DNA of 46,452 nt from a virus, in IMG/VR virus record IMGVR_UViG_3300027336_000162, positions 1 to 46,452 of that record; one strand, given 5' to 3'. The notes beneath the pieces were generated by a model. The model saw nothing but the letters and a program-made list of their open reading frames with translations. It did not search any database and was not told the origin of the DNA. Positions 1,311-44,020 of this stretch are shown here, one piece after another. Position 1 is the first letter of the stretch; the number at the start of each line of letters is the position of its first letter. A program made the translations under genes and the position numbers.

Positions 1311-1441
1311 CCCCCAAAACCCGGGTACTTTCCACCTACACCCAAAACTGTAGTACCCCGGGCCCAAACTGAGTACCTGTCGCCCCTGCGACTTGCCGCC
1401 CGGGACACCCTGAGCCGCGTGCTACAGTGCGCCCCGTTCCC

Positions 1442-1477
1442 GAGCCGATTGGCTCACCCCTTCGGAGTTCAACTTCC
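1442..1477 (+). promoter_or_regulatory. GATT-loop hairpin leader, copy 2
   Basis: GAGCC (1442-1446), GATT (1447-1450) and GGCTC (1451-1455) form a perfect stem preceded by CCC and followed by A. TTCGGAGTTCAAC follows and the ATG is at 1478. The extra TTCC before the ATG makes this spacing (22 nt) slightly longer than usual. It decides the start of the next gene at 1478 rather than at the upstream in-frame GTG at 1427. Confidence 0.8.
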
Positions 1478-1960
1478 ATGCCCCCTCTCGGCAACACCCT
1501 GCCGGTGCACGTCCGTGTGCCCGAGCCCGACCCCTCCAACTACTCCCTCTGGAAGCTGGTCCTGCACCGCTACACCGAGCGGATCTACGACCTGCGCGAC
1601 GAGCTCAGGGAGCTGCCCTACTGCCCCACCGTGTGCAACGTCCTGAAGTGGGTGTGGGGCCAGCAAGGGGAGTTGACCCAGGCCGAGTACACCCGGCTGT
1701 TCCACGTCATCATCGCCTTCATGGACGACGGCCTGGAGGGCCACCAGGTCTCCAGCGCGCACCTGCGCACCCTCACCGAGTGCGCCCAGCTCCAGCAGGC
1801 TTGGCCCTCGGACTTGAACTACCACGCCGCCAAGCACCGCGCCGAGTTCCGCTTGCGCTGGCTGCGCTGGCACGCCGGCCTTGAGATCGGTGGCCAGTTC
1901 CCCTGGGCCGCACGGGTTTTGGCCGACCCGCCCGCCCCAGAACCGAGTCAGGAGGCCTGA
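1478..1960 (+). CDS. PWA-motif family protein 1
   Basis: This 160-residue protein is the first member of a five-gene paralogous family. Residues 123-144 carry the family signature EFRLRWLRWHAGLEIG followed by FPWA. An upstream segment (AWPSDL, near residue 108) recurs in other members. The N-terminal two thirds look helical and contain W/L-rich segments. It begins at the ATG directly after the GATT leader, and the next family gene starts 1 nt after its stop. No function is known. A small, expanded, soluble protein family next to a control region suggests host-takeover or regulatory roles, but that is inference. Confidence 0.75.
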   Translation: MPPLGNTLPVHVRVPEPDPSNYSLWKLVLHRYTERIYDLRDELRELPYCPTVCNVLKWVWGQQGELTQAEYTRLFHVIIAFMDDGLEGHQVSSAHLRTLTECAQLQQAWPSDLNYHAAKHRAEFRLRWLRWHAGLEIGGQFPWAARVLADPPAPEPSQEA

Positions 1961-1961
1961 G

Positions 1962-2357
1962 ATGAACCTGACCCCTGAACAGCGCGCCGAGGCTCTGCCC
2001 AACCCAGACAACGCCGAGGTCTGGCGCCGCGTGCTCGACTGCTACGGCGACTTCGCGCCTGACTACCGCGGATACATCTGCGATCACCTCGCCAAGTGCA
2101 ACCGCGACGGCGTGATCTCCTGGCCCGAGCGGTGCGAACTCGAAGCCGAGGTGAACCTGTTCCTGTCGCCGCCGTTGTCGGGGAACTGGGCCGCCGTCAC
2201 CCTGACGAACGCCGCGCAGCAGGCCCTCAAGTGGCCAGCCGACCTGTGCGTCGACTGGGCCCCCGACTGCGTCGAGTTCCGCCGCCGCTGGATGCGCTGG
2301 CGCGCTGGCCTGCCACACCGGGCGCTGCCCTGGGCTGACGCCCTGGCCAAGATCTGA
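1962..2357 (+). CDS. PWA-motif family protein 2
   Basis: This 131-residue protein starts at the ATG after AGGAGG (1950-1955), 1 nt beyond the stop of the preceding paralogue. Its N-terminus NPDNAEVWRRVL matches the fourth one-domain member (3785-4198), and the signature EFRRRWMRWRAGL followed by LPWA lies at 105-125. The middle contains YICDHL and DGVISWPERCEL, matching YLC...GLIT..E in the paralogue. The order therefore appears to be W-x-x-VL, YxC-x-x-L, G-hydrophobic-I, then the FRxRF/W block. Confidence 0.75.
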   Translation: MNLTPEQRAEALPNPDNAEVWRRVLDCYGDFAPDYRGYICDHLAKCNRDGVISWPERCELEAEVNLFLSPPLSGNWAAVTLTNAAQQALKWPADLCVDWAPDCVEFRRRWMRWRAGLPHRALPWADALAKI

Positions 2358-2373
2358 AACCAACCCCCATCCC

Positions 2374-2420
2374 CGAGCGATTGCTCGACCGCCGGCACGA
2401 CCGGCATTTAGGAGACCATC
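2374..2420 (+). promoter_or_regulatory. GATT-loop hairpin leader, copy 3, with a second hairpin
   Basis: CGAGC (2374-2378), GATT (2379-2382) and GCTCG (2383-2387) form the family stem, preceded by CCC and followed by A. Uniquely, a second 5-bp hairpin, GCCGG (2391-2395) with CCGGC (2401-2405), is inserted before the ribosome-binding segment TTTAGGAGACCATC. The ATG at 2421 is therefore 33 nt from the first stem but 15 nt from the second. Confidence 0.8.
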
Positions 2421-3176
2421 ATGAGCATTCCCACGCCCTGGAACGCCGTTCGCCACCACCTGGAGGCCATGGCCCGCATCCCCGAGGAGGCCGGTCGCAC
2501 CACGCTGGCCAGCGCCCTGGCCGACATGCTGGAGACCCGCGCGCTGCACCCCCGCCAATTCAGGTTCGCCCAGGCCGAGTTGCAGGCGTACCAGCGCGGC
2601 GCCAGCACCCTGACGCTGGCCGCCATGGCGGACGGGGCGTTCCCAGCCAGCCTTGACCCCCTGAACTTCCGCCACCGCCAGGTCTTCGAGATTGAGTTCG
2701 TCTCGTGGCTGTCGGGGTTCTCGGACGGCGCGGACTTGCCCTGGGCGGCTGGGGGGCGGCGCTCCTTCACCTTCACGGAGTCCCGCTGCTCGCCTGAGCT
2801 TTGGGGCAAGCTGGCTGACGTGTACACGGGGTGGAGCCCGGACGGCTCCACGGTCGAGTACCTGTGCCATGCCGTGGAGGATCTGGAGGCTGAAGGGGTG
2901 GTCGACGAGGTTGAGGCCCGCGACCTCCGCGCCGAGATCGACTCCTACGTGAACCCGATCGAGTCGCCCGACTACTTCTCCTACCTCAGCTCGTGGGCGC
3001 TGATCTCCGGGGCGTACCCCGAGGACCTGGTGGAAGTGGGCCTCCATGCACACGCTGCGTTCCGGCTGCGCTTCGTTAACTGGAAGGCCGGGCGACCCCT
3101 CGGGCCGCTGCCCTGGGCGCAGAACGACTTGCCGGCCGTGCACCTGATCCAGCCCGAGGAGGTGACCCATGCCTGA
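2421..3176 (+). CDS. PWA-motif family protein 3, two-domain
   Basis: At 251 residues this is about twice the length of its paralogues and carries the signature twice. The first is diverged (FEIEFVSWLSGF then LPWA, residues 89-109) and the second is typical (FRLRFVNWKAG then LPWA, 214-233). The second half also repeats the YLC...DEVEARDLRAEI block of the family. This looks like an internal duplication or fusion with a decaying first copy. The next family gene overlaps its end by 8 nt. Confidence 0.8.
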   Translation: MSIPTPWNAVRHHLEAMARIPEEAGRTTLASALADMLETRALHPRQFRFAQAELQAYQRGASTLTLAAMADGAFPASLDPLNFRHRQVFEIEFVSWLSGFSDGADLPWAAGGRRSFTFTESRCSPELWGKLADVYTGWSPDGSTVEYLCHAVEDLEAEGVVDEVEARDLRAEIDSYVNPIESPDYFSYLSSWALISGAYPEDLVEVGLHAHAAFRLRFVNWKAGRPLGPLPWAQNDLPAVHLIQPEEVTHA

Positions 3177-3522
3177 CGCCGAACTGCAAAGGCTCTGGGG
3201 CCTGGTGCTGGTGGAGTTCAACAAGCAGGCGGCAGATCGGTACCCGAACTGCCCCGCCCTGTGCTATGTGATGAGCGGTATGAGGTTCTCCCGTACCCTC
3301 ACGGCGGAGGGGCACGTGGAGCTGCTGCGGGACATTGGCCCGTTCCTGCAATCCCGAGGCTTCCTGCACCGGGCCGCCATCGACACTGAGGCCTGGCCAC
3401 CTGACCTCTACGCCGCGAACTCGCTGCACAGGGCGGAGTTCCGGCGCCGGTTCGTGTGCTGGCGCGCAGGGCTTGAGATCGGCGGGCCGCTGCCATGGGC
3501 TGAGCAACAGGGGGGTGTGTGA
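3169..3522 (+). CDS. PWA-motif family protein 4
   Basis: This 117-residue protein overlaps the two-domain paralogue by 8 nt and is preceded by GAGGAGGTG within that gene. The signature EFRRRFVCWRAGLEIG followed by LPWA is at 90-111 and is closest to member 1, with which it also shares AWPxDL and an HRAEF lead-in. It ends in a Gly-rich tail. Its stop codon shares a base with the start of the following membrane protein (TGATG). Confidence 0.75.
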   Translation: MPDAELQRLWGLVLVEFNKQAADRYPNCPALCYVMSGMRFSRTLTAEGHVELLRDIGPFLQSRGFLHRAAIDTEAWPPDLYAANSLHRAEFRRRFVCWRAGLEIGGPLPWAEQQGGV

Positions 3523-3740
3523 TGGGCCCGGAATTGCCCCTGCCCCTGACCGAGTTGCAGGCCCTCAAGCTGATCACCGTTGGCTCACTGATCGGCATCT
3601 CCATCGCGGTGCGCGCCACCTGGGATGAGGGCTGGTGGGCCAGAACCTTCGGCGCCCTGCTTGGCTTCGCGGCTGGGTCCGCGTTCGCCGTGATTCTGTG
3701 GCTGTTGACCAACGGGGTCATCCTCCTGTTCACCACCTGA
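3522..3740 (+). CDS. Small two-helix membrane protein
   Basis: This 72-residue protein starts at the ATG in TGATG shared with the preceding stop. Two hydrophobic segments (about 15-29 and 42-69) are separated by a short loop containing WDEGWW. No signal peptidase site or family is recognised. Translational coupling to the PWA-motif gene suggests co-expression. Small phage inner-membrane proteins of this kind can be holin-like or exclusion proteins, but nothing specific supports either. Confidence 0.65.
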   Translation: MGPELPLPLTELQALKLITVGSLIGISIAVRATWDEGWWARTFGALLGFAAGSAFAVILWLLTNGVILLFTT

Positions 3741-3751
3741 TTTCAACCCCC

Positions 3752-3784
3752 GGCCCGATTGGGCCAAGCCTTAGGAGTCCAACC
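3752..3784 (+). promoter_or_regulatory. GATT-loop hairpin leader, copy 4
   Basis: GGCCC (3752-3756), GATT (3757-3760) and GGGCC (3761-3765) form a perfect stem preceded by CCC and followed by A. CTTAGGAGTCCAACC leads to the ATG at 3785, 19 nt after the stem. It heads the long coupled block 3785-8632. Confidence 0.8.
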
Positions 3785-4198
3785 ATGAACACCGAGAACG
3801 GGTGGCGCGTTCCTGCGCCCAACCCCGACAACGCCGCCGCCTGGGAGCGCGTCCTGCATTTCCTGCAAGAGAGCATTGCAGAGATGATGCCCGCTTACCT
3901 GTGCATCGTCCTGGAGGTCGCAGGGGACCGGGGACTCATCACCCAGGACGAGGAGATCGCCCTGCGCCAGGAGCTGGAGTGGTTCCTGAGCCTGCCGGGG
4001 AGGATGGACGAGAAGCACCCCCTGCGCTGCGGGTTCATCACCAGGGCCGCTGACCGGGTCGGCGCCTGGCCCAACGACACGAACTCGGGCGACGAGTTCC
4101 GGGTTCGGTTCGTGCGCTGGCGCGCTGGCCTGACCACGGACGGTGACTTTCCCTGGGCGCGCTGGCCGCAATGCGAGACGCTGAGGGTGAGCGCGTGA
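3785..4198 (+). CDS. PWA-motif family protein 5
   Basis: This 137-residue protein starts at the ATG after the GATT leader. The N-terminal NPDNAAAWERVL aligns with member 2, followed by AYLCIVLE, a GLITQDEEIALRQELEWFL block, AWPND, and the signature EFRVRFVRWRAGL then FPWA at 104-125. It is separated from the other four family genes by the small membrane protein and a hairpin leader. The next gene overlaps its stop. Confidence 0.75.
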   Translation: MNTENGWRVPAPNPDNAAAWERVLHFLQESIAEMMPAYLCIVLEVAGDRGLITQDEEIALRQELEWFLSLPGRMDEKHPLRCGFITRAADRVGAWPNDTNSGDEFRVRFVRWRAGLTTDGDFPWARWPQCETLRVSA

Positions 4199-4389
4199 AG
4201 GTGACCCCCTGCGAGACGTGTGAGCACCGAGCGCACCCGGTGAGCCCGGGCGACTGGTGCCGCATCCACAAAGTCAAGCTCAAGCCGGCGTGTGTGCACC
4301 ACTCCGACAAGCATGAGCGTTTCAAGGCCCAGCGCGTGGAGCTGTTCCGCGCCCGGGCCAAACCCTCCGAGAGAAAGGAACCCCAGTGA
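4195..4389 (+). CDS. Cysteine-rich small protein, possible zinc finger
   Basis: The frame is open from an ATG at 4171, but the GTG at 4195 overlaps the preceding stop (GTGA) and has GAGGG upstream, so I prefer 4195 (64 residues). The N-terminus has CETC, followed by WCRIH and CVHH, a Cys/His pattern that could bind zinc. The C-terminus is basic. No family is assigned. Confidence 0.55.
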   Translation: MKVTPCETCEHRAHPVSPGDWCRIHKVKLKPACVHHSDKHERFKAQRVELFRARAKPSERKEPQ

Positions 4390-4901
4390 ACCAGATGACA
4401 CAAGCCCTCGTGAACGCCAACGTGCCGATGCCCGCCCTGAACAGGCGCATCTGGCAGGTGCTCAAGGACAAGGGCGAAGCCACGGCCGCATCGCTTGCCC
4501 GCACCCTGGGCGTGGCCCCGGCTTCGGTCTCCTCGATGTGCAGCCGCATGCTGCGCCGAAAGATGCTTGAGCACCGCACCCAGACGGTGAAGGCCCGCGT
4601 GGGCAATGGCTGGGGTGAGCGCAGGGTCAGCCTGTACCGGGTGCCGCCAGGGATGCTGGAGTTCGAGCTGCTGCCCGAGCCGGCGGACCACGACCAGCCG
4701 CGCCGGGGTCGGGGCCGCCCCCGTGTCGTGGTCCCCGCCACGTATGGCGCCCCCATCGTGGTGGGCGAGGTGCCGCGCGCCGAGACCACGGCCAAGGTGC
4801 GCCAGCAGGAGGACGTCCTGGACCTGGTGGCGCACCTGCGACTGAGCGAGCTGCGCGCCCTCCAGGTGCGCCTCAACGAGATTTTCAAGGAGACCGCATG
4901 A
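4386..4901 (+). CDS. Winged-helix protein with an AT-hook-like motif
   Basis: This 171-residue protein starts at the GTG that overlaps the previous stop (GTGA), with AAGGAA 5 nt upstream. Residues about 20-62 match a MarR/ArsR-type winged helix (RIWQVLKDKGEATAASLART, then LGVAPASVSSMCSRML). Residues 106-113 read RRGRGRPR, a canonical AT-hook core. The C-terminal 40 residues look helical. A DNA-binding role is likely. The AT-rich palindrome at 1187-1310 is an attractive but untested target. Confidence 0.75.
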   Translation: MNQMTQALVNANVPMPALNRRIWQVLKDKGEATAASLARTLGVAPASVSSMCSRMLRRKMLEHRTQTVKARVGNGWGERRVSLYRVPPGMLEFELLPEPADHDQPRRGRGRPRVVVPATYGAPIVVGEVPRAETTAKVRQQEDVLDLVAHLRLSELRALQVRLNEIFKETA

Positions 4902-8661: not shown

Positions 8662-8669
8662 GCCTTCCC

Positions 8670-8700
8670 GCCCCGATTGGGGCACCCTTAGGAGTTCGAC
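8670..8700 (+). promoter_or_regulatory. GATT-loop hairpin leader, copy 5
   Basis: GCCCC (8670-8674), GATT (8675-8678) and GGGGC (8679-8683) form the stem, preceded by CCC and followed by A. CTTAGGAGTTCGAC leads to the ATG at 8701, 17 nt after the stem. It heads the block 8701-11023. Confidence 0.8.
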
Positions 8701-9108
8701 ATGCGAATGAGCATCGACAACGAGAGCAGCCTCGCCCTCATGGAGCAGAGCCTGGGCGACCAGCCCCTGTTCTCCACCGTCATCCCTGCCCCGCCGGGCT
8801 ACCGCCGCGCCACGCTGGAGCTGACCCGCAGCCCTCGACTGCAAGTGCTGCGCGCCACGGTGAGCTGCTACGAGCCCTACCGCGATGACCCCGTGCGGAT
8901 CGAGGTGTGCCCGCTCAACCGGTTCGCCCACACCCTGCGCACCCGCTACAAGCTGGACCCGAAGGCCCTTGTGCAAGCGGCCAAGAACGCCGGCATGAAG
9001 GCCACGCTGCTGGCCGAGATGCAGGCCGATCTGTCGCCGGCCAATGAGGCCATCCAGCGCGCCGAGGACCTGGGCCTGGCCACGCCCGAGCTTGTGCTGG
9101 AGGGCTGA
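8701..9108 (+). CDS. Hypothetical protein
   Basis: This 135-residue protein follows a GATT leader. The N-terminal half looks beta-rich (ATLELTRSPRLQVLRATVSC) and the C-terminal half helical (PKALVQAAKNAGMKATLLAE). No conserved domain is recognised. The next gene starts 1 nt after its stop. Confidence 0.7.
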   Translation: MRMSIDNESSLALMEQSLGDQPLFSTVIPAPPGYRRATLELTRSPRLQVLRATVSCYEPYRDDPVRIEVCPLNRFAHTLRTRYKLDPKALVQAAKNAGMKATLLAEMQADLSPANEAIQRAEDLGLATPELVLEG

Positions 9109-11116: not shown

Positions 11117-11168
11117 GCCCCGATATGGGGCACCCCGCCTCGATTGAGGCAAACCTCGGAGTCCAAAC
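11117..11168 (+). promoter_or_regulatory. Double GATT-type hairpin leader, copy 6
   Basis: Two stems lie in tandem: GCCCC (11117-11121) with GGGGC (11127-11131) around GATAT, and GCCTC (11137-11141) with GAGGC (11146-11150) around GATT. The second has CCC before it and A after it. CCTCGGAGTCCAAAC leads to the ATG at 11169, 18 nt after the second stem. The tandem suggests duplication of the element followed by drift in the first loop. Confidence 0.8.
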
Positions 11169-11675
11169 ATGAACACCTGCAATCACTGCGGCCGCGACCT
11201 GGCCGAGTACCCGGAGGGCTGCACCTCCGATGACTGCCCGGGCAACACTGCCATGGGCATGAAGACCATCAACGTCTCGGAGGCCGGGCTCAAAGCCCTG
11301 GACTGGCTGGTGGCGAAGTGCGAAGGACACCTTGAGCCCGAGGCGTACCTGGGCAAGCTGATCCCCCGCGTGGTGTTGTGCAACCAGACCATCTGCGACG
11401 AGTGGGTCGTGCGCTTCAACCCGACGCCCCAGGTCTACTACTCGCCCCTCTACAACCCGTCCACCAGCGGGGACATTGGGGGCCAGATCATTGACCGGGA
11501 GCTGATCAGCACCTGCTGGGAAGGCGCAACGTGGGTGGCGACTCTGTTCGATAAGCACCTCGACGGGGGGTGGTACGGGCACTGCTACGGCCCTACCCCG
11601 CTCATCGCCGCCATGCGCTGCTACGTGACGAGCAAGCTGGGCAACGTCGTCGAAGTGCCGGGGGTGCTGGCATGA
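11169..11675 (+). CDS. DUF2591-like protein with N-terminal zinc finger
   Basis: This 168-residue protein begins CNHCGRDLAEYPEGCTSDDC, a four-cysteine zinc-finger pattern. From about residue 38 it matches DUF2591, a family of phage and prophage proteins: ALDWLVAKCEG, a central SGDIGGQIIDRE segment, and the C-terminal GPTPLIAAMRCYVTSKLG block. A second copy without the zinc finger lies at 12171-12572. DUF2591 has no established function. Confidence 0.7.
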   Translation: MNTCNHCGRDLAEYPEGCTSDDCPGNTAMGMKTINVSEAGLKALDWLVAKCEGHLEPEAYLGKLIPRVVLCNQTICDEWVVRFNPTPQVYYSPLYNPSTSGDIGGQIIDRELISTCWEGATWVATLFDKHLDGGWYGHCYGPTPLIAAMRCYVTSKLGNVVEVPGVLA

Positions 11676-11971: not shown

Positions 11972-12174
11972 GCGCCACCGACGCCCAGGCCCTGGCGCTT
12001 GGAATCACCAAGCCGCAGATCAACTCCATGCAGCGCAAGGTGGACCAGCTGGAGCGGGAGAACGACGCCATCGGCTTGACCCGCATTCGCCACGCTATCA
12101 ACGAGCGGCTGGTGGAGATCCGCTTGCTGCTGCGCGACGGCCACCTGAACAATATGAACGGGGGTAAGCGATGA
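11968..12174 (+). CDS. Hypothetical small helical protein
   Basis: This 68-residue protein is coupled at both ends. It is predicted to be helical throughout (INSMQRKVDQLERENDAIGL), possibly a short coiled coil. Function unknown. Confidence 0.6.
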   Translation: MSATDAQALALGITKPQINSMQRKVDQLERENDAIGLTRIRHAINERLVEIRLLLRDGHLNNMNGGKR

Positions 12175-12572
12175 AAGCGATCAAGACCGGTGAACTCAGC
12201 GGCCCGGCCCTCGATTGGGCGGTGGCGAGATGTGAAGGGGGATGGGTTTTGGGCCCGGAGTCCTTTACCCCGCACCACCACCTTGGCCGGATGAATTTCT
12301 CGACAGACTGGGCACAAGGCGGGCCGATCATCGAGCAGGAAGGAATTGGTCTGCTGTATGACGCAGGTTCCGCATGCCGCAAACCCAGTTGGTTTGCCAC
12401 TACCGATGACCAATGCACCATCGAAAGCTATGAGGGCGAGCACTTTGACCCCGCATTCCTTGTTGCCGAGTCAGCAGGAACGCGTGGCCCCACACCCCTC
12501 ATAGCCGCCATGCGCTGCTACGTGACTAGCAAGCTGGGCGAGACCGTCGAAGTGCCGGAGGAGCTGCTGTGA
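12171..12572 (+). CDS. DUF2591-like protein
   Basis: This 133-residue protein has the standard DUF2591 order: ALDWAVARCEG, STDWAQGGPIIEQEGI, and GPTPLIAAMRCYVTSKLG at the C-terminus. The last segment is nearly identical at the DNA level to the paralogue ending at 11675, so recent duplication or gene conversion is likely. It lacks the zinc-finger extension of that paralogue. Confidence 0.8.
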   Translation: MKAIKTGELSGPALDWAVARCEGGWVLGPESFTPHHHLGRMNFSTDWAQGGPIIEQEGIGLLYDAGSACRKPSWFATTDDQCTIESYEGEHFDPAFLVAESAGTRGPTPLIAAMRCYVTSKLGETVEVPEELL

Positions 12573-13222: not shown

Positions 13223-13245
13223 CCCGACGCAATCCAATTTTTCCC

Positions 13246-13277
13246 GCCCCGATTGGGGCACCACTTAGGAGTTCAAC
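13246..13277 (+). promoter_or_regulatory. GATT-loop hairpin leader, copy 7
   Basis: GCCCC (13246-13250), GATT (13251-13254) and GGGGC (13255-13259) form the stem, preceded by TTTTTCCC and followed by A. CTTAGGAGTTCAAC leads to the ATG at 13278, 18 nt after the stem. Confidence 0.8.
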
Positions 13278-13595
13278 ATGGGCTTTCACAACCAGAGTGA
13301 AGCTGACACCGTGGCCCTCATGGTGCAGCAGGCAGAGGTCACGTCTCGCCACGTCGAGCTGAATCTCAGCGAGGAGGAAATCAAGGAGTTGGCCAACCGG
13401 TGCCGGGAGAAGTTCCTGGAGGCCCTGGGCCGCCTCACCGCGTACCTCTACCACGGTGACTACACCAACGTGCTGATCTACAGTGACCGCGAGGACCTGA
13501 CGGCCTACTACACGGACCGCCGCAACGACTCGCGCCGCTTCGTGATGGGCGCGGTCTGGCGCCCCGAGCAGCGCGTCTTCACCTTCCACAGCTGA
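13278..13595 (+). CDS. Hypothetical protein
   Basis: This 105-residue protein follows a GATT leader. The N-terminal half is helical (LSEEEIKELANRCREKFLEA) and the C-terminal half looks beta-rich (NVLIYSDREDLTAYYTDR). No domain is recognised. The next gene starts 10 nt downstream. Confidence 0.7.
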   Translation: MGFHNQSEADTVALMVQQAEVTSRHVELNLSEEEIKELANRCREKFLEALGRLTAYLYHGDYTNVLIYSDREDLTAYYTDRRNDSRRFVMGAVWRPEQRVFTFHS

Positions 13596-14822: not shown

Positions 14823-15109
14823 TGTTCGGCATCTTCAAGTTCATTGACCTTCGACGCCCCAAGTTGACCAGCGTGGTCGACGACGAACTCTACGAGGCCC
14901 AGCGGGCCCGGCTCAACGCCATGGCGGCGGTCGACCTTGCCCAGCAGAAGGTCGTCGAAGCCAAGTCCCGGGTGGTCACGGCCAAGGCGCACCTTGCCTA
15001 CTGCAATCGGCGCGTCGAGGCGCTGCAGAAGGAGCAGGAAGCGAGGGCCCTGCAGCCCGGCACCTGGGTGAGCACCTCGGGCCCGCAAGAGCCCGAGATG
15101 AGCACCTGA
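14822..15109 (+). CDS. Hypothetical coiled-coil protein
   Basis: This 95-residue protein starts in TGATG overlapping the previous stop. Residues about 20-76 are continuously helical with a heptad-like pattern (VDLAQQKVVEAKSRVVTAKA), so a coiled coil is likely. No catalytic motif is seen. It is the last gene of the block headed by the leader at 13246. Confidence 0.6.
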   Translation: MFGIFKFIDLRRPKLTSVVDDELYEAQRARLNAMAAVDLAQQKVVEAKSRVVTAKAHLAYCNRRVEALQKEQEARALQPGTWVSTSGPQEPEMST

Positions 15110-15118
15110 ATCTCAACC

Positions 15119-15131
15119 TTAGGAGTCCAAC
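15119..15131 (+). promoter_or_regulatory. TTAGGAGTCCAAC ribosome-binding segment without GATT hairpin
   Basis: The shared segment TTAGGAGTCCAAC immediately precedes a GTG start at 15132. Upstream only an imperfect GAGAT/ATCTC pairing with a 10-nt loop is present, with no GATT tetraloop. This is the one accessory-module leader that keeps the ribosome-binding segment but has lost or never had the hairpin. Confidence 0.7.
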
Positions 15132-15725
15132 GTGAAACCCAACATTGATCCCGACACCGGCATCGCCTACGGCTATGTCTCGGCCAACAGCCTCGACCCC
15201 GATCTGGTGCATGAGCTGATGTACCACCAGGGCGAGGACCTGTCGTACCAAGAGGCCCTGGCTGAGCTGCGGCGCGAGGTGGAGAACGAGGCGGACCTGA
15301 TGCGCGAGGAGATCTCCATCGAGCTCTCCGAGATCGACCACAACATGCCCGAGTTCGAGCGCATCGCCCTGGAGGAGGCCAAGCTCGACGCCATGCTCAG
15401 TCGGTGGGGCTACAGCGGTATCGACGAATTCATCGAGGGTGAGGTCGAGCGGCGCTCCGATGGCCTCTCCATCGAGGAGCCGATCATCGCTGGCGAGTGC
15501 GACGGTGTGCACTACCAGACCTCGTGGCTGGGGGGCGCGCTCAACTTCTGGATCTTCAAGGCGCCCTACTCCGGCAAGTTCCAGCCGTGCTCGCCCTGTG
15601 TGCCGGGCGCGGGCAACCTTGACTGCCCCGACAAGGCCAACGGCATCGAGACCTACATGCCGCCGGCCGACTGGTTCGAGGCCGATCACCAACTCAAGAT
15701 CGAGCAGGAGCTCTACCATGGATGA
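15132..15725 (+). CDS. Conserved phage-type protein
   Basis: This 197-residue protein uses a GTG start set by TTAGGAGTCCAAC. The first 110 residues are helical and acidic. The C-terminal part, HYQTSWLGGALNFWIFKAPY followed by CSPCVPGAGNLDCPD, is a conserved block I recognise from phage and integrative-element hypothetical proteins (SWLGGA ... SPCVPGAG). The cysteines could bind metal. It overlaps the next gene by 8 nt. Confidence 0.75.
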   Translation: MKPNIDPDTGIAYGYVSANSLDPDLVHELMYHQGEDLSYQEALAELRREVENEADLMREEISIELSEIDHNMPEFERIALEEAKLDAMLSRWGYSGIDEFIEGEVERRSDGLSIEEPIIAGECDGVHYQTSWLGGALNFWIFKAPYSGKFQPCSPCVPGAGNLDCPDKANGIETYMPPADWFEADHQLKIEQELYHG

Positions 15726-16447: not shown

Positions 16448-16638
16448 CCACGCCCTGCCGATTCGGGCTGCCGCAGGAAACCGTCCAGGACCTCGTCAGG
16501 CACCCGCACGCCTACGACTGCCTCAAGCACAACCTTGCCCCTGACCACGAGGCCTACGCTGATCGCCAGATCGACGCCATGACCAACTCGGAGCTGTTGG
16601 CCGCGATCAGCGACGCCATCGAGCAGATCCGTCAGTAA
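16444..16638 (+). CDS. Hypothetical small protein
   Basis: This 64-residue protein starts with GTG overlapping the previous stop. It is helical and acidic in its C-terminal half (MTNSELLAAISDAIEQIRQ). No family is recognised. A GATT leader follows 3 nt after its stop. Confidence 0.5.
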   Translation: MTTPCRFGLPQETVQDLVRHPHAYDCLKHNLAPDHEAYADRQIDAMTNSELLAAISDAIEQIRQ

Positions 16639-16641
16639 CCC

Positions 16642-16672
16642 GCCCCGATTGGGGCACCTTTAGGAGTTCAAC
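16642..16672 (+). promoter_or_regulatory. GATT-loop hairpin leader, copy 8
   Basis: GCCCC (16642-16646), GATT (16647-16650) and GGGGC (16651-16655) form the stem, preceded by CCC and followed by A. TTTAGGAGTTCAAC leads to the ATG at 16673, 17 nt after the stem. Confidence 0.8.
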
Positions 16673-17893
16673 ATGCGACTGTCCATCCGCAGCACGCCGA
16701 CCCTCACAACCGACCACGGTGAAGTCGAGCTGGAGTTCGAGCCCTACAGCGAAGACGACATCATCGTCCACCGCGTGGGCAACAAGCTGGTCGTGGGCTA
16801 CCTCGTGCACGACGAGAGCCCGAGCAACCCCATGACCGACTACGACTGCCAGGGCCACCTCTACACGGCGGAGACCCGGGGGCGCGGCGTGATCACTGAC
16901 AACGATCGTGAGCTGCGCAGCGCCCTGGGCCTGAACAGCTACGGCGAGATCGACCACGACAACATCGTCACCATCAACGGCGTCCGCGCCTCGATCTGGG
17001 ACCACGCGGCCGAGGTCGTGGAGGGCAAGCTCGACGCCGACCAGTGGGCCGAACTGCTGCTGTGGGCCCCCCGCTTCGACTCGTCGGTGAAGCTGACGCC
17101 GGAGCAGGAGCGGCGACTTGAGCAGCCCTACGTTGACGAGGCGCTCGTCACTAGCCTGCGTACCGAATACGCCGGGGCGCTGCGCGCCGACCTGCGTGAC
17201 GACCGGGGCTGCCACTCCGACCTGGTGGAGCTTGAGGTGAGGGTGCTCTACCAGGAGCACTGGCGCGAGGTCGCCGGGCCCTTCGTGGTGCCCATGCACT
17301 ACAGCGACTACAGCTACGAGACCAACATCTCGCCGGTCGACTGGGATGGCGATCCCGATGACCTGCCCAACGCGGTGTGGGTGGCCGACAAGGGCGCCCA
17401 AGAAAACATCGAGGGCTCGGCCCACCCCGACAACGTCGAGGTCAAGCAGATCGCTCCCTTCCCCGACTCGGTCTTCGAGCTGGTGGAGGACGGCAGGGTG
17501 GTGCTGTGCGGCACGTACAGCGAGTGCTGGAAGCTGCTGCGCGAGCGCCACCCAGTGACCGATGAGACCCTGCGCCAGACCGCGCGCCGCTACGCCGAGG
17601 CCGTCTGCGACGAGTACGCCAAGTGGTGCAGCGGGGACGTCTACGGCTGCGTGTTGCAGATCTTCTCCCTCAAGGGCGACGAAGACGACGAGCCGGTGTG
17701 GGTGGGCCACGACGACTGGGACTCGTGCTGGGGCTTCATCGGGCACGAGAACGCCATGGAGAACCTGGGCTCGGAGTTCGTGGACCCGGTCGTCTCCCGT
17801 CTGCAGAAGGCCCTGATCGAGGGCGAGCCGCACAGCACCGGCGACCTGACGCTGGTGCACCCGCTGGACAGCGAGGGCGGCCTCACCGACTGA
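16673..17893 (+). CDS. Conserved phage-type protein
   Basis: This 406-residue protein stands alone behind its own GATT leader. Recognisable blocks include VVPMHYSDYSYETNISPVDW, VWVADKGAQENI, and a C-terminal ARRYAEAVCDEYAKWCSGDV followed by DSCWGFIGHENA. The last block occurs in many phage hypothetical proteins (YxxWxxGDVYG ... DSCWGF). The protein is acidic with no membrane segment. Its size and separate leader suggest an important but unknown early function. Confidence 0.7.
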   Translation: MRLSIRSTPTLTTDHGEVELEFEPYSEDDIIVHRVGNKLVVGYLVHDESPSNPMTDYDCQGHLYTAETRGRGVITDNDRELRSALGLNSYGEIDHDNIVTINGVRASIWDHAAEVVEGKLDADQWAELLLWAPRFDSSVKLTPEQERRLEQPYVDEALVTSLRTEYAGALRADLRDDRGCHSDLVELEVRVLYQEHWREVAGPFVVPMHYSDYSYETNISPVDWDGDPDDLPNAVWVADKGAQENIEGSAHPDNVEVKQIAPFPDSVFELVEDGRVVLCGTYSECWKLLRERHPVTDETLRQTARRYAEAVCDEYAKWCSGDVYGCVLQIFSLKGDEDDEPVWVGHDDWDSCWGFIGHENAMENLGSEFVDPVVSRLQKALIEGEPHSTGDLTLVHPLDSEGGLTD

Positions 17894-17903
17894 ATTTCAA
17901 CCC

Positions 17904-17933
17904 GGGCCGATTGGCCCAACTTTTGGAGTCCAC
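17904..17933 (+). promoter_or_regulatory. GATT-loop hairpin leader, copy 9
   Basis: GGGCC (17904-17908), GATT (17909-17912) and GGCCC (17913-17917) form the stem, preceded by CCC and followed by A. TTTTGGAGTCCAC leads to the ATG at 17934, 16 nt after the stem. Confidence 0.8.
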
Positions 17934-18392
17934 ATGGAAATCTCGAACACTGACGACATCATCGACAGCCGCGAGGTCATCGACCGCATCTCGGAGCTGG
18001 AGAGCGAGCTTGAGGACGGCCCCTACGAGGAGTTCCGCGAGGAGCAGATCGAGGCCGGCATCCCCGAAGACGAGATCGACGCCTTCGACACCTGGCTCGA
18101 CAACACCGCGCAGACGGACCACCTCTACTCCCTGGAGTGCGAGGAGCTGCTGATGCTGCGGGCCCTGGCCGAGGAGGGCGAGAGCCTGAGCGATTGGCGC
18201 TACGGGGTGACCCTGATCCATCCCAGCCACTTCCAGACCTACGCCCAGGAGCTGGCCGAGGAGATCGGGGCCATCGACCCGGACGCCCGCTGGCCCGCCA
18301 ACTGCATCGACTGGGAGCAGGCGGCCAACGAGTTGCGGGCGGACTACACCACGATCGACTTCGACGGCGTGGACTACCTCGCCCGGGGCTGA
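17934..18392 (+). CDS. Very acidic conserved protein, possible DNA mimic
   Basis: This 152-residue protein has about 42 Asp/Glu, about 8 Arg and no Lys. Its C-terminal half, SDWRYGVTLIHPSHFQTYAQ through WPANCIDWEQAANELRADYT, is a block I recognise from integrative elements and plasmids, often near antirestriction genes. The strong negative charge would fit a DNA-mimic or antirestriction protein, but this is inference and no ArdA signature is seen. It stands alone behind a GATT leader. Confidence 0.7.
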   Translation: MEISNTDDIIDSREVIDRISELESELEDGPYEEFREEQIEAGIPEDEIDAFDTWLDNTAQTDHLYSLECEELLMLRALAEEGESLSDWRYGVTLIHPSHFQTYAQELAEEIGAIDPDARWPANCIDWEQAANELRADYTTIDFDGVDYLARG

Positions 18393-18411: not shown

Positions 18412-18436
18412 GGGTCCCTACCACACGTAAGGACCC
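18412..18436 (+). other. Hairpin upstream of leader copy 10
   Basis: GGGTCC (18412-18417) pairs with GGACCC (18431-18436) around a 13-nt loop. A perfect TTGACA lies at 18404-18409, but the bases 17 nt downstream (GTAAGG) are a poor -10. A promoter here is possible but not supported by both boxes. Confidence 0.4.
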
Positions 18437-18441
18437 TCCCC

Positions 18442-18472
18442 GCGCATTTGCGCAACCTTTTAGGAGTCCAAC
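18442..18472 (+). promoter_or_regulatory. Variant GATT-type hairpin leader, copy 10
   Basis: GCGC (18442-18445) pairs with GCGC (18450-18453) around ATTT instead of GATT. The flanking CCC and A and the segment TTTTAGGAGTCCAAC are conserved, and the ATG at 18473 is 19 nt after the stem. This is the only copy with an altered loop at the usual position. Confidence 0.7.
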
Positions 18473-19528
18473 ATGACCCAGACCATCACGCGCCTGTCCA
18501 CCGAGGACGTCGTCATCAGCATGCTGCGCGAGAACACCGGCCGCGGCATCTGCGACAGCGGAGACGCCTACGGCCGCAACTGGGAGCGCGCCCAGTCCCA
18601 CGACTTCAAGTCCGAACCCGAGGTGACCACCCACTGGTCCGCCTACAAGGACTCGAAGGGCGTGCATCGCATCAGCGCCGACGCCACGGTCAGCCTGTAC
18701 CACTGGATGACCAACGCGCTGGAGTTCGACCCCGAGCTGCAGGCCGAGCTCGACGAGTTCCTGGAGGAGCACGAGGACGAGGCCGGCTCCTGGTTGCAGC
18801 TAAGCGACGAGTTCGTGGAGCGGCTGATCGAGCTTGGCCGCGTCGACCCCAAGAACGGGGCGGAGCTCGTCAACACCTACAACGACCCCGACTACTGCTG
18901 GCTCTCGCAGGTCCTGCAGTACCACGCCCTCAACCTGGAGGACGGCGACGCCTTCTACCCCACGCACCTGATCGTGCATGTGCACGGTGGCTGCGATGTG
19001 CGGGGAGGTTACACCGCGCCCAAGTGCTTCACCCTGACCTCGCAGGGCCGGGACTACTTCCGTGACTGGATGCGCCCGACTGTCCTCACGGCCTGCGACG
19101 AGGTCTGGCACATCGAGGGCTACCAGGACTTCGAGCCGAGCGATCGCAACACCTGCGGCGTCGACGACCCGTTCAAGCTGCCGGCCTACGAGATCGAGAC
19201 CCTCAAGGACGAGATGCTGGCCGGCGGCTACGACACCGCCGGTATCGTCGGCGTGCAGATCGCCCTGGAGGCACTGTCCAACATCGAGGGCGCCGTGAAG
19301 GGTGAGCCGGGGCACTCAACCCTGCCGGTGTCCCTGCCCAAGGAGCAGACGCTTGCCTCCCTGGCCGAGCGCCGCGCCGCGCTGCGGCAGGACCTGCTCG
19401 TCGAGGCCGTCAAGGGCATCAGCCTGCTGCATCAGCACGCCCTGTTCGTGCTTGACCCCAAGCACTGCTACCTCGTCGACGGCGACCAAGAGACCGCTGA
19501 CGAGCTGCGCTTCTACACCGACTTCTGA
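18473..19528 (+). CDS. Conserved phage-type protein
   Basis: This 351-residue protein begins with STEDVVISMLRENTGRGICD followed by SGDAYGRNWERAQ, a pattern (TGRxxxDSGxAYGRxWxRNQ) seen in many phage hypothetical proteins. A central YPTHLIVHVHGGCDVRGGYT block and a C-terminal Leu-rich helical part follow. No catalytic site is obvious. It is the last gene with the hairpin-type leader before the replication module. Confidence 0.75.
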   Translation: MTQTITRLSTEDVVISMLRENTGRGICDSGDAYGRNWERAQSHDFKSEPEVTTHWSAYKDSKGVHRISADATVSLYHWMTNALEFDPELQAELDEFLEEHEDEAGSWLQLSDEFVERLIELGRVDPKNGAELVNTYNDPDYCWLSQVLQYHALNLEDGDAFYPTHLIVHVHGGCDVRGGYTAPKCFTLTSQGRDYFRDWMRPTVLTACDEVWHIEGYQDFEPSDRNTCGVDDPFKLPAYEIETLKDEMLAGGYDTAGIVGVQIALEALSNIEGAVKGEPGHSTLPVSLPKEQTLASLAERRAALRQDLLVEAVKGISLLHQHALFVLDPKHCYLVDGDQETADELRFYTDF

Positions 19529-35243: not shown

Positions 35244-35464
35244 GCGCGCTCGTTGTCGGGGGCCGAAAGGGCCAGTGGACGCTGCTGGAGAAGACAGCGT
35301 CTGGCACCCGCGCTAAGTGGCGCTGCCGCTGCGACTGCGGTACCGAGCGCGAGGTCTATCAGCACCACCTCAGCAGCGGCGCCAGCAGGTCCTGTGGCTG
35401 CACCAAGAAGACGCACCACAACCACGCGCTTGGCCACCTCAGCGGAGGTGCCCATGCCCGCTGA
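35240..35464 (+). CDS. Small cysteine-rich protein, AP2/zinc-finger-like
   Basis: This 74-residue protein is coupled at ATGA. It has WRCRCDCGTEREVYQHHLSS followed by SRSCGC. The CxC ... CGC pattern (RCDCGxxxxVxxxxLxSGxSxSCGC) is common in phage proteins that occur alone or attached to HNH/AP2 domains. A nucleic-acid-binding role is likely. It overlaps the nuclease gene by 11 nt. Confidence 0.65.
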   Translation: MSALVVGGRKGQWTLLEKTASGTRAKWRCRCDCGTEREVYQHHLSSGASRSCGCTKKTHHNHALGHLSGGAHAR

Positions 35465-42075: not shown

Positions 42076-42487
42076 GTTCAACGCGCTGGAAGCGCTGAAG
42101 AAGGCGCAGGGCGCCCTGATGCTCATTGAGGATCTCCGTGAGGCCCAGCGCACCGAGATTGCCCGAAAGGAGCTCAAGCGCCGCACCTCCGGCCTGTACG
42201 GCTGGGCCTACCAGCTGCTGTTCGGGCCGCAGAGCCTTGAGCGCGTGCACCGGGACCTCTGCAGAACCCCCGGCTTCAGTGACTACAAGGCGCAGGCCCT
42301 GGCCTACCGCGCCCAGGAGATCGTCATCGAAGGCATTGAGGCGGCCGCTGAGGCGGCACACCTGCGGGGCCAGCCGGTGAGGCTCTCCACCAACGAGGTG
42401 CTCACGCTCTCACACTGGGTACGCGTGTTCAATGCGGGCGACAAGGTCCTCGCCCCGTATGCTGGCGTAGCGCAGCGCAAGGGATAG
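42065..42487 (+). CDS. Hypothetical helical protein overlapping the integrase
   Basis: This 140-residue protein starts at the ATG after AAGGGGGGCG. It is helical (LEALKKAQGALMLIEDLREA) with a basic middle. Its last 78 nt (42410-42487) lie antisense to the 3' end of the integrase gene. No family is recognised. It is the last rightward gene of the element. Confidence 0.65.
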   Translation: MSVEFNALEALKKAQGALMLIEDLREAQRTEIARKELKRRTSGLYGWAYQLLFGPQSLERVHRDLCRTPGFSDYKAQALAYRAQEIVIEGIEAAAEAAHLRGQPVRLSTNEVLTLSHWVRVFNAGDKVLAPYAGVAQRKG

Positions 42488-43558
42488 CGAGCTCCAGCCC
42501 ATCACCTTGCACACCTCGACGTCGGACAGGGCCCAGCGGCCCTGTCCGTCTCTCAGTTCAAACCAGCGGCATGCTGCCTCATGCCTCAGATCGTGGGTGG
42601 TGAAATCTTCCACCTTCGCATAGGCGAAAAGGGTGCCAAAGCGCCCTTTCAAAGCCGAGGTAGCCCTAGCTCTACCCTCCGGCGACCCGTCCCAGAACGG
42701 GAACATCAACCCCACCCTCCCCTCACACCAGCTTTTCAGCTTCACCCTCAACGCAGGCTTCAGCGGCACCACCCGCGGCTTCGCTCGTCCCCGGTGGCCC
42801 TTCGAGCCCGCCACCCGCAGAATCCCCTTCGCCTCATCGAACGCCGACACCTGCAGCCGGAACGCCTCCGACAGGCGCAGCCCGGTGTCGAGCATCAGGT
42901 CAAACATCATGGCCATGGCCGGGTCCACCCAGAGCGCGCGCTCCCGGTCCTCGCGCTTCACTCCAGCCAGGGCCTGCCTGATCCTGGCCTCCTCCTCGGG
43001 CAGCAGCCGGCGGTCGCGCTGCACGTCCACCTTCGGCTCGACCAGCTCGCTCTCGGCCACCGAGTAGGTGCTGTAGCCAAGCGGAAGCAGCCGGAACGGG
43101 TTCACCTGGTCCCGTCCCGTGGTCTTTCGGTGGTGCCAGTCCAGCGCCCGGGCAAGCGAGCCCACCCGCTTGCGGATCGTGCCCGGCGCCAGGTTCTCCT
43201 TGACCTTGCACTCCTTCACGAATGCCTCCACCCAGGCGTAGGTGCTCTGGTGCACCCGCACGCCCTTGAGCTTGCGCGCCAGCAGCTTCACCAGCTCCAC
43301 TTCTGACGGCGCGACCGAGGCCTCCGCCAGGTAACCGCCAAGCAGCTCTGGCCACGGCGTGTGGTCCTTGCGCCCCTCGGTTGGCTTCTGCTCGGCGAGC
43401 TCGACCGGCACCACGCCGCGCTGGAGCATGGCCTCAAGCTGGGTGCCGTAGGTCTCGGCCTCCCCTCTCGTGTCGAAGGTGAAGAAGAAGGGGCGTGGGA
43501 GCAGCTTGTGCACCACGCGGAGCTGAAAACGCTCGCCTCGTTGCTGAATGCTGGCCAT
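42410..43558 (-). CDS. int: Tyrosine-type site-specific integrase
   Basis: This 382-residue protein has a phage integrase layout: an N-terminal DNA-binding part, a core-binding domain (about 65-160), and a catalytic domain with R228 (DTGLRLSE), HDLRH (H322, R325), Trp355 at the His-III position (MGWSS) and Y364. It should integrate the element at the adjacent tRNA-Cys. Its leader is TTTTAGGAGTCCAAC, the same as the accessory-module genes. It converges with and overlaps the gene at 42065. Confidence 0.92.
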   Translation of the reverse strand: MASIQQRGERFQLRVVHKLLPRPFFFTFDTRGEAETYGTQLEAMLQRGVVPVELAEQKPTEGRKDHTPWPELLGGYLAEASVAPSEVELVKLLARKLKGVRVHQSTYAWVEAFVKECKVKENLAPGTIRKRVGSLARALDWHHRKTTGRDQVNPFRLLPLGYSTYSVAESELVEPKVDVQRDRRLLPEEEARIRQALAGVKREDRERALWVDPAMAMMFDLMLDTGLRLSEAFRLQVSAFDEAKGILRVAGSKGHRGRAKPRVVPLKPALRVKLKSWCEGRVGLMFPFWDGSPEGRARATSALKGRFGTLFAYAKVEDFTTHDLRHEAACRWFELRDGQGRWALSDVEVCKVMGWSSLSLALRYASIRGEDLVARIEHAYPV

Positions 43559-43580
43559 GTTGGACTCCTAAAAGGGGTCC
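43559..43580 (-). promoter_or_regulatory. Integrase leader with ribosome-binding site in a hairpin loop
   Basis: On the minus strand the segment before the start reads TTGGAC, then CCCTTTTAGGA, then GTCCAA. TTGGAC and GTCCAA form a perfect 6-bp stem that places most of the ribosome-binding site in the loop. TTTTAGGAGTCCAAC is identical to the leader of 18473. There is no GATT hairpin. Confidence 0.65.
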
Positions 43581-43595
43581 AATCCTACTCGATTA

Positions 43596-43615
43596 CACGG
43601 ACTGCGCGGTCCGTG
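43596..43615. promoter_or_regulatory. Palindrome upstream of integrase, candidate operator
   Basis: CACGGAC (43596-43602) and GTCCGTG (43609-43615) form perfect 7-bp arms around TGCGCG. Its position about 40-60 nt upstream of the integrase start fits a repressor or excisionase operator. Confidence 0.55.
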
Positions 43616-43621
43616 GAGACG

Positions 43622-43648
43622 GTAGCATGCTACTCAAAACGGGTAGCA
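43622..43648. promoter_or_regulatory. Three GTAGCA half-sites upstream of integrase
   Basis: GTAGCATGCTAC (43622-43633) is a perfect 12-bp palindrome, and a third GTAGCA lies at 43643-43648. The repeated hexamer suggests binding sites for a regulator, integrase arm sites or excisionase. Confidence 0.6.
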
Positions 43649-43692
43649 AACCACCCAGATTGGGTACAAAACGGCCGACCCAGAAACAGGAA

Positions 43693-43710
43693 GGGCCTCA
43701 AGTGAGGCCC
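43693..43710 (-). terminator. Hairpin downstream of tRNA-Cys
   Basis: GGGCCTC (43693-43699) and GAGGCCC (43704-43710) form a 7-bp stem around AAGT. Read on the minus strand it follows tRNA-Cys and is followed by TTCCTGTTT, a weak T-run. It may end the tRNA transcript or isolate it from the integrase. Confidence 0.5.
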
Positions 43711-43738
43711 GTAAGTCGTTGATTCTGTTGGAGTTTTT

Positions 43739-43775
43739 TGGAGGCGCGATCCGGAGTCGAACCGGACTAACCGGA
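43739..43775 (-). other. Probable attachment site in the 3' part of tRNA-Cys
   Basis: The element lies on the 3' side of tRNA-Cys with the integrase adjacent, the standard arrangement for integration at a tRNA 3' end. The exact crossover cannot be set, because the matching repeat at the far end is not in the window. Confidence 0.4.
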
Positions 43776-43812
43776 TTTGCAATCCGGGGCATAACCGCTT
43801 TGCTATCGCGCC
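43739..43812 (-). tRNA. tRNA-Cys(GCA)
   Basis: On the minus strand the sequence begins GGCGCGATAGCAAAGCGG and ends GATCGCGCCTCCA. The anticodon GCA lies in TTGCAAA, the acceptor stem GGCGCG/CGCGCC is perfect, the discriminator is U, and the CCA is encoded (43739-43741). It is the gene nearest the integrase and the likely attachment site. Confidence 0.93.
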
Positions 43813-43824
43813 GCTGACCTGCGT

Positions 43825-43853
43825 AAAAAAGGGAAGCTTAGCTTCCCTTTTTT
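43825..43853 (-). terminator. 13-bp perfect hairpin between the two tRNA genes
   Basis: AAAAAAGGGAAGC (43825-43837) and GCTTCCCTTTTTT (43841-43853) pair over 13 bp around a 3-nt loop. With A- and T-runs on both sides it is a bidirectional intrinsic terminator by sequence. It lies between tRNA-Gly and tRNA-Cys, so tRNA-Cys may depend on read-through or its own promoter, or the hairpin may serve processing. Confidence 0.7.
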
Positions 43854-43861
43854 GACTTGAT

Positions 43862-43937
43862 TGGAGCGGGAAACGAGGCTCGAACTCGCGACCTCAACCT
43901 TGGCAAGGTTGCGCTCTACCAACTGAGCTATTCCCGC
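43862..43937 (-). tRNA. tRNA-Gly(GCC)
   Basis: On the minus strand the sequence begins GCGGGAATAGCTCAGTTGG and ends TCGTTTCCCGCTCCA. The anticodon GCC lies in CTTGCCAAG, the acceptor stem GCGGGAA/TTCCCGC is perfect, and the CCA is encoded. It is a 76-nt, standard bacterial glycine tRNA. Confidence 0.95.
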
Positions 43938-43985
43938 GTTTTCTAACCGCACTGCAGTGTTCGTCAGAAGCTGAAATTATAGCGT

Positions 43986-44020
43986 AAAAATCGCGCCTCC
44001 CGCAAGGGCGCGCGATTTTT
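43986..44020 (-). terminator. Intrinsic terminator of lon
   Basis: AAAAATCGCGC (43986-43996) and GCGCGATTTTT (44010-44020) form an 11-bp stem. On the minus strand the right arm begins at the last base of the lon stop codon and the left arm supplies the T-run, so it is a classical terminator directly after lon. Confidence 0.8.

Follow-up and report, generated by a model that had tools for sequence, protein, structure and literature searches.

A tandem family of small paralogous proteins in a temperate phage and its remote relatives in other phages

Closest described proteins and regulatory repeats

The best comparisons for the gene array described here are small phage proteins that are themselves encoded by neighbouring paralogous genes. 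ORF5 and ORF6 of Pseudomonas phage LKA1 are adjacent, 37% identical and both assigned to phrog_35632, which also includes PN09_016 of Otagovirus and its relatives; the same adjacent pair is found in two metagenome contigs. A much larger set is present in phage BcepSauron, in which genes 390–396 and 398–403 form a cluster of 13 tandem small paralogues (the small gene 397 is excluded), and 12 of the 13 proteins match phrog_8421. No published account of this cluster was found in the jumbo-phage survey (PMC7824862). One BcepSauron member also hit phrog_1324, annotated as 'transcriptional activator', with an E-value of 0.002, which is too weak to be used. Probable extra members of the BcepSauron family are located beyond the main cluster (genes 344, 345, 346 and 443; L045 6979–8014 and 47865–48287), some of them with unrelated annotations, e.g., aminotransferase and DNA helicase. 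Phage LUZ7 encodes the adjacent ORF05 and ORF06, early-region ORFans.

The array is also accompanied by a repeated leader element, which among described elements most resembles the start-associated sequences (SAS/ESAS) of Cluster K mycobacteriophages. These are short repeats with AGGAG found just 5′ of the starts of many unrelated non-structural genes, in a single orientation; about half of the copies have an upstream inverted repeat, and evidence for an RNA hairpin was scant according to that study (PMC3203893).

Six paralogous domains in five genes

The window, i.e., the whole stretch of DNA analysed here, is a virus record of 46,452 bases. Five plus-strand genes in its left part encode the paralogues A (1478..1960, 160 aa), B (1962..2357, 131 aa, beginning 1 base past the stop codon of A), C (2421..3176, 251 aa), D (3169..3522, 117 aa, overlapping the end of C) and E (3785..4198, 137 aa). 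All five ORFs have a GGAG/AGGAG-type ribosome site consistent with these starts. Codon-position counts give GC3 values of 0.83–0.93, and G+C contents of about 0.68, 0.48 and 0.89 at the first, second and third codon positions, respectively, match the expectation for real genes of this genome. Between D and E, translation reveals a 73-aa hydrophobic protein (3519..3740, plus strand), which is outside the paralogue family and, judging from its sequence, is probably a membrane protein.

The initial annotation had proposed that the five genes share a C-terminal block, FRxR[FW]xxWxAG…PWA, which gene C would carry twice, the first copy being degenerate. Alignment of the six domains bears this out. 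Gene C contributes two HMM domains, C1 (about 2421–2756, degenerate) and C2 (about 2757–3173), and A, B, D and E contribute one each. In Smith–Waterman comparisons, all 15 domain pairs scored above the best of 300 shuffles (Z 4.6–27), with identities between domains falling to about 25–35%. Used as the sole query, protein E retrieves six domains in the window, one match per domain and two within C, the other five at E-values from 3.5e-14 to 0.003. As a DNA pattern, FRxR[FW]xxWxAG-x(6-7)-PWA matches the window five times, versus 0.00 times expected from shuffles. Across the six domains, P, W, A, P, F, W, G and the P-W-A tail are invariant; in C1 the block reads FEIEFVSWLSGF...LPWA and an alanine replaces the cysteine of helix 2. 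In a FastTree phylogeny of 32 domains, which is only a guide because the alignment is short, all six window domains fall into one clade with a support of 0.92.

The family is thus real rather than a product of chance, and the shuffle test rules out composition bias as the source of the block, one of the outcomes that would have undermined the initial annotation. It is highly improbable that the array reflects composition bias, chance or decaying, functionless duplicates. The degeneracy of C1 is what decay would predict, but all pairs exceed the shuffles, and every frame is open with a strong GC3 bias despite identities of only about 25–35%.

Structure prediction points in the same direction. 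The AlphaFold model of E (pLDDT 75.7, pTM 0.73) comprises five helices (residues 14–32, 39–48, 54–68, 85–91 and 102–113). The first half of the C model is poor, yet the same helix order appears twice in it. The predicted folds are therefore consistent with each other, with low confidence for the first half of C, and unrelated folds, the other outcome that would have spoken against the family, were not obtained.

Remote relatives and a probable phage superfamily

Pfam, NCBIfam, PHROGs and PDB sequences returned neither a known domain nor a catalytic family for the five proteins, and none of the five matched a PHROG model at E < 0.2 when used singly. At the sequence level, collections of viruses, phages and genomes yielded no close relatives; the four loci picked up with DNA patterns proved to be chance matches, and the PDB matches in Foldseek were noise. 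By contrast, profile comparison and Foldseek against phage proteins uncovered remote relatives of a family for which no function had been recognised earlier. The best profile match of the window family was the LKA1 family (score 49.9, probability 95), followed by BcepSauron (35.2, probability 75), and BcepSauron and LKA1 matched each other with a score of 32.2. In the controls, 25 unrelated phage families reached at most 19.0, trimmed column shuffles at most 17.0 and reversed profiles stayed below 9; one untrimmed column shuffle scored 130.9, which did not recur in 120 trimmed shuffles. Foldseek ranked BcepSauron 398 first for both query models and also returned further BcepSauron proteins, PN09 and both LKA1 proteins. 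The target TM scores against the best relatives were 0.58–0.72, but all E-values exceeded 0.1 and the comparison is one among models.

The three groups share helix 1, a second helix with the motif [YF][ILMV]C.[AV][LIV] and an [IL][TS]..E turn leading into helix 3. The cysteine of helix 2 is present in five of the six window domains (C1 being the exception), in all 13 BcepSauron proteins and in all LKA1-type sequences. Members of phrog_35632 are about 84–106 aa long, begin with the same helix 1, carry [FYL]MC.[AS][LV] in helix 2 and I[TS]..E before helix 3, and the LKA1 paralogues are adjacent, as in the window. They differ in lacking the FRxR[FW]xxWxAG...PWA block, their C-terminal part having diverged, and single-sequence search from the window did not match them. 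The BcepSauron proteins combine the invariant helix-2 cysteine and the tandem arrangement with a C-terminal helix R..[FW]..W, at a position equivalent to that of the window type; unlike the latter, they end in ...WMLENW and lack both the second arginine and the PWA tail. Together, these comparisons make it well supported, at the level of sequence, that the window family, phrog_35632 and phrog_8421 constitute one superfamily, and that each domain is predicted to be a small compact five-helix protein remotely akin to the two PHROG families. The window family would be a new divergent branch of this unnamed phage superfamily. The LUZ7 pair (ORF05/ORF06, L064 1420–2023) resembles it in consisting of adjacent proteins of about 100 aa with an.MC.R helix and an aromatic C-terminal helix, and a 102-aa LUZ7 protein is among the Foldseek matches; however, the similarity is statistically weak (E = 0.001 and 0.05 in LUZ7), and we regard the pair as a further weak superfamily member only in the sense of a lead.

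In the domain tree, the expansions in the window and in BcepSauron appear to have occurred separately, and the LKA1-type pair predates the split of its carriers. Relatives of the family likewise occur as adjacent paralogues, 13 in BcepSauron and pairs in LKA1 and the two metagenome contigs. Repeated independent expansion and sporadic distribution fit, without proving, a role in host takeover or counter-defence. We tentatively favour A–E as putative non-enzymatic binding proteins for one of these purposes. Conserved aromatic residues and the cysteine would hold the helical bundle together, whereas the diverged exposed faces might bind different host targets, one surface per copy, so that duplication and divergence would widen the target range. 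Of the suggestion in the initial annotation, the working family stands; host takeover or anti-defence is still a best inference. It is possible, though rather doubtful, that the whole superfamily is a single undescribed scaffold that different phages multiplied independently, each copy having been redirected to a different target, in host defence or in takeover.

The genomic neighbourhood of some relatives could point instead to stress rather than takeover. In Otagovirus and Pyxpy02, the related gene lies among TelA-, TerC- and TerD-type (tellurite-resistance-type) genes, as would be expected if A–E were stress- or metabolism-related small proteins. In the annotations examined, we recognised no gene of this type around the window array, around LKA1 ORF5/6 or around the BcepSauron cluster, and we consider this explanation quite improbable.

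Phage setting, leader hairpin and dispersed word

The replication block of the window encodes a DNA ligase, a helicase, a primase, a DNA polymerase and an SbcCD-type protein. Downstream of it, a minus-strand integrase gene, tRNA-Cys, tRNA-Gly and a host-type lon gene (42410–46452) mark the right-hand junction of an integrated phage; the window is thus a temperate phage in the integrated state, flanked on the right by host DNA. We compared it with six related records, whose primases are 56–69% identical to that of the window. The replication block is common to all of them, and an integrase is found in five of the six, the sixth being a fragment of which 20 kb were examined. The small genes to the left of the replication block mostly vary between the window and these records, and it is in this variable left arm that the A–E array sits. 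A gene at 610–879 recurs in four of the six, including two that represent almost the same phage. A winged-helix-like gene (4386–4901) lies beside the array, and a second local paralogue pair (11169–11675 and 12171–12572), represented by single homologues in the relatives, shares a nearly identical 81-base 3′ stretch (86%).

No member of the paralogue family was detected in the six records, as expected for accessory genes; neither switching off all filters nor using a broader model changed this. At the scale of these records, copy number therefore varies between related elements, as the initial annotation had proposed to check. The same distribution bears on an alternative in which A–E act on components of the phage itself instead of the host, in assembly or replication or as modular adaptor subunits. 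The different copies kept by a single genome could be parts of one complex, and C is a natural two-domain fusion, but relatives that share the replication core have none of the copies, which makes such a role distinctly unlikely.

Genes A and E, and more loosely C, are preceded by a leader consisting of a 5-bp stem, a GATT loop, a spacer of about 8–10 bases and GGAGT[TC]CAA..ATG, with the consensus TTAGGAGTCCAACATG in this phage. The leaders of A (1436..1480, plus strand, supported by stem covariation) and E (3746..3787, plus strand) score 47.2 and 53.3 bits, respectively, against covariance model R1, of which both are training sequences. The leader of C (2374..2423, plus strand), recognised in the sequence, has the hairpin CGAGC-GATT-GCTCG and a longer spacer to the ribosome site; it matches the model weakly (2368–2423, 15.4 bits, E = 0.03). 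With leaders before A, C and E, the array appears to consist of three units, A–B, C–D and E, under a common leader. Intact coding genes, a single clade (0.92) and shared leader elements together support the working, locally expanded family that had been envisaged.

The leader precedes the ribosome sites of many unrelated left-arm genes. A strict scan of the window found eight copies on the plus strand and none on the minus strand, versus 0.04 in shuffles; relative G001 yielded three. At E ≤ 1e-5, the covariance model gave 39 matches across the window and its relatives (L019, L022, L027, L028, L034 and L035), 11 of the 39 being its own training sequences; the other window leaders are at 572–612, 8664–8703, 11131–11171, 13240–13280, 15089–15134, 16636–16675, 17898–17936 and 18436–18475. 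A shortened match is also seen at the start of the integrase gene (43556–43579, minus strand, 24.7 bits, E = 1e-5). Across the 39 matches, every stem position that carries letters is paired, a percentage biased by the initial scan, which required pairing, and by the model alignment, which favours it; the informative measure is the number of compensatory changes, and all five pairs have changed on both sides. Stem covariation is 0.606 versus 0.116 in shuffles. The element matches no Rfam family. Like SAS/ESAS, it is a ribosome-site repeat at start codons in one orientation, but it has a short 5-bp stem with covarying pairs, lacks the 13-bp SAS consensus GGGATAGGAGCCC and occurs in other hosts. 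It may be a previously undescribed regulatory element of the phage, acting as RNA or as DNA. The position of the array and the repeated leader suggest regulated non-structural genes, and from position alone we infer early expression; a sigma-70 promoter consensus was looked for and not found.

The second recurrent element is the 11-bp word CCCCGACAACG, the commonest 11-mer of the window (18 copies versus 0.06 expected) and enriched in five of the six related records, with 10–30 copies each. Five copies at 381–933 flank the gene at 610–879 (381–469 and 881–933), and 13 more sites reach as far as position 35261. They may serve as sites for a repressor, for partition or for replication. In the frame examined, each of the 12 copies on the plus strand of the window translates as P-D-N-[AV]. 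One lies inside E (3823..3833, plus strand), where it encodes the PDN of NPDNA, and the NPDNA of B is a copy with one mismatch. Thus, the NPDNA element noted earlier is indeed present in a subset of the proteins but is partly a DNA-level feature.

These elements bear on the main rival to host-target binding, namely nucleic-acid binding by the arginine-rich C-terminal helix. A–E could be small DNA- or RNA-binding regulators in which FRxR[FW]xxW[RHK] contacts nucleic acid, possibly at copies of CCCCGACAACG or at the leader hairpins. The conserved basic-aromatic character of the helix, the recurrence of two candidate regulatory elements in the same genome and the neighbouring winged-helix-like gene would all agree with this. 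Against it, both elements also occur in relatives without the family, no DNA-binding family was matched, and the BcepSauron proteins keep the aromatic residues without the second arginine, a pattern that somewhat better fits a structural role of the helix. We therefore consider such regulators unlikely and retain, as our tentative preference, binding to host targets.

If the proposed relationship is right, separate families of unknown function would merge into a single superfamily in which expansion into arrays recurs, and laboratory phages with relatives (LKA1, Otagovirus) would allow its function to be tested. The covarying leader hairpin and the dispersed word CCCCGACAACG may be more unusual than the proteins themselves, and they point to a previously undescribed layer of regulation common to this phage clade.
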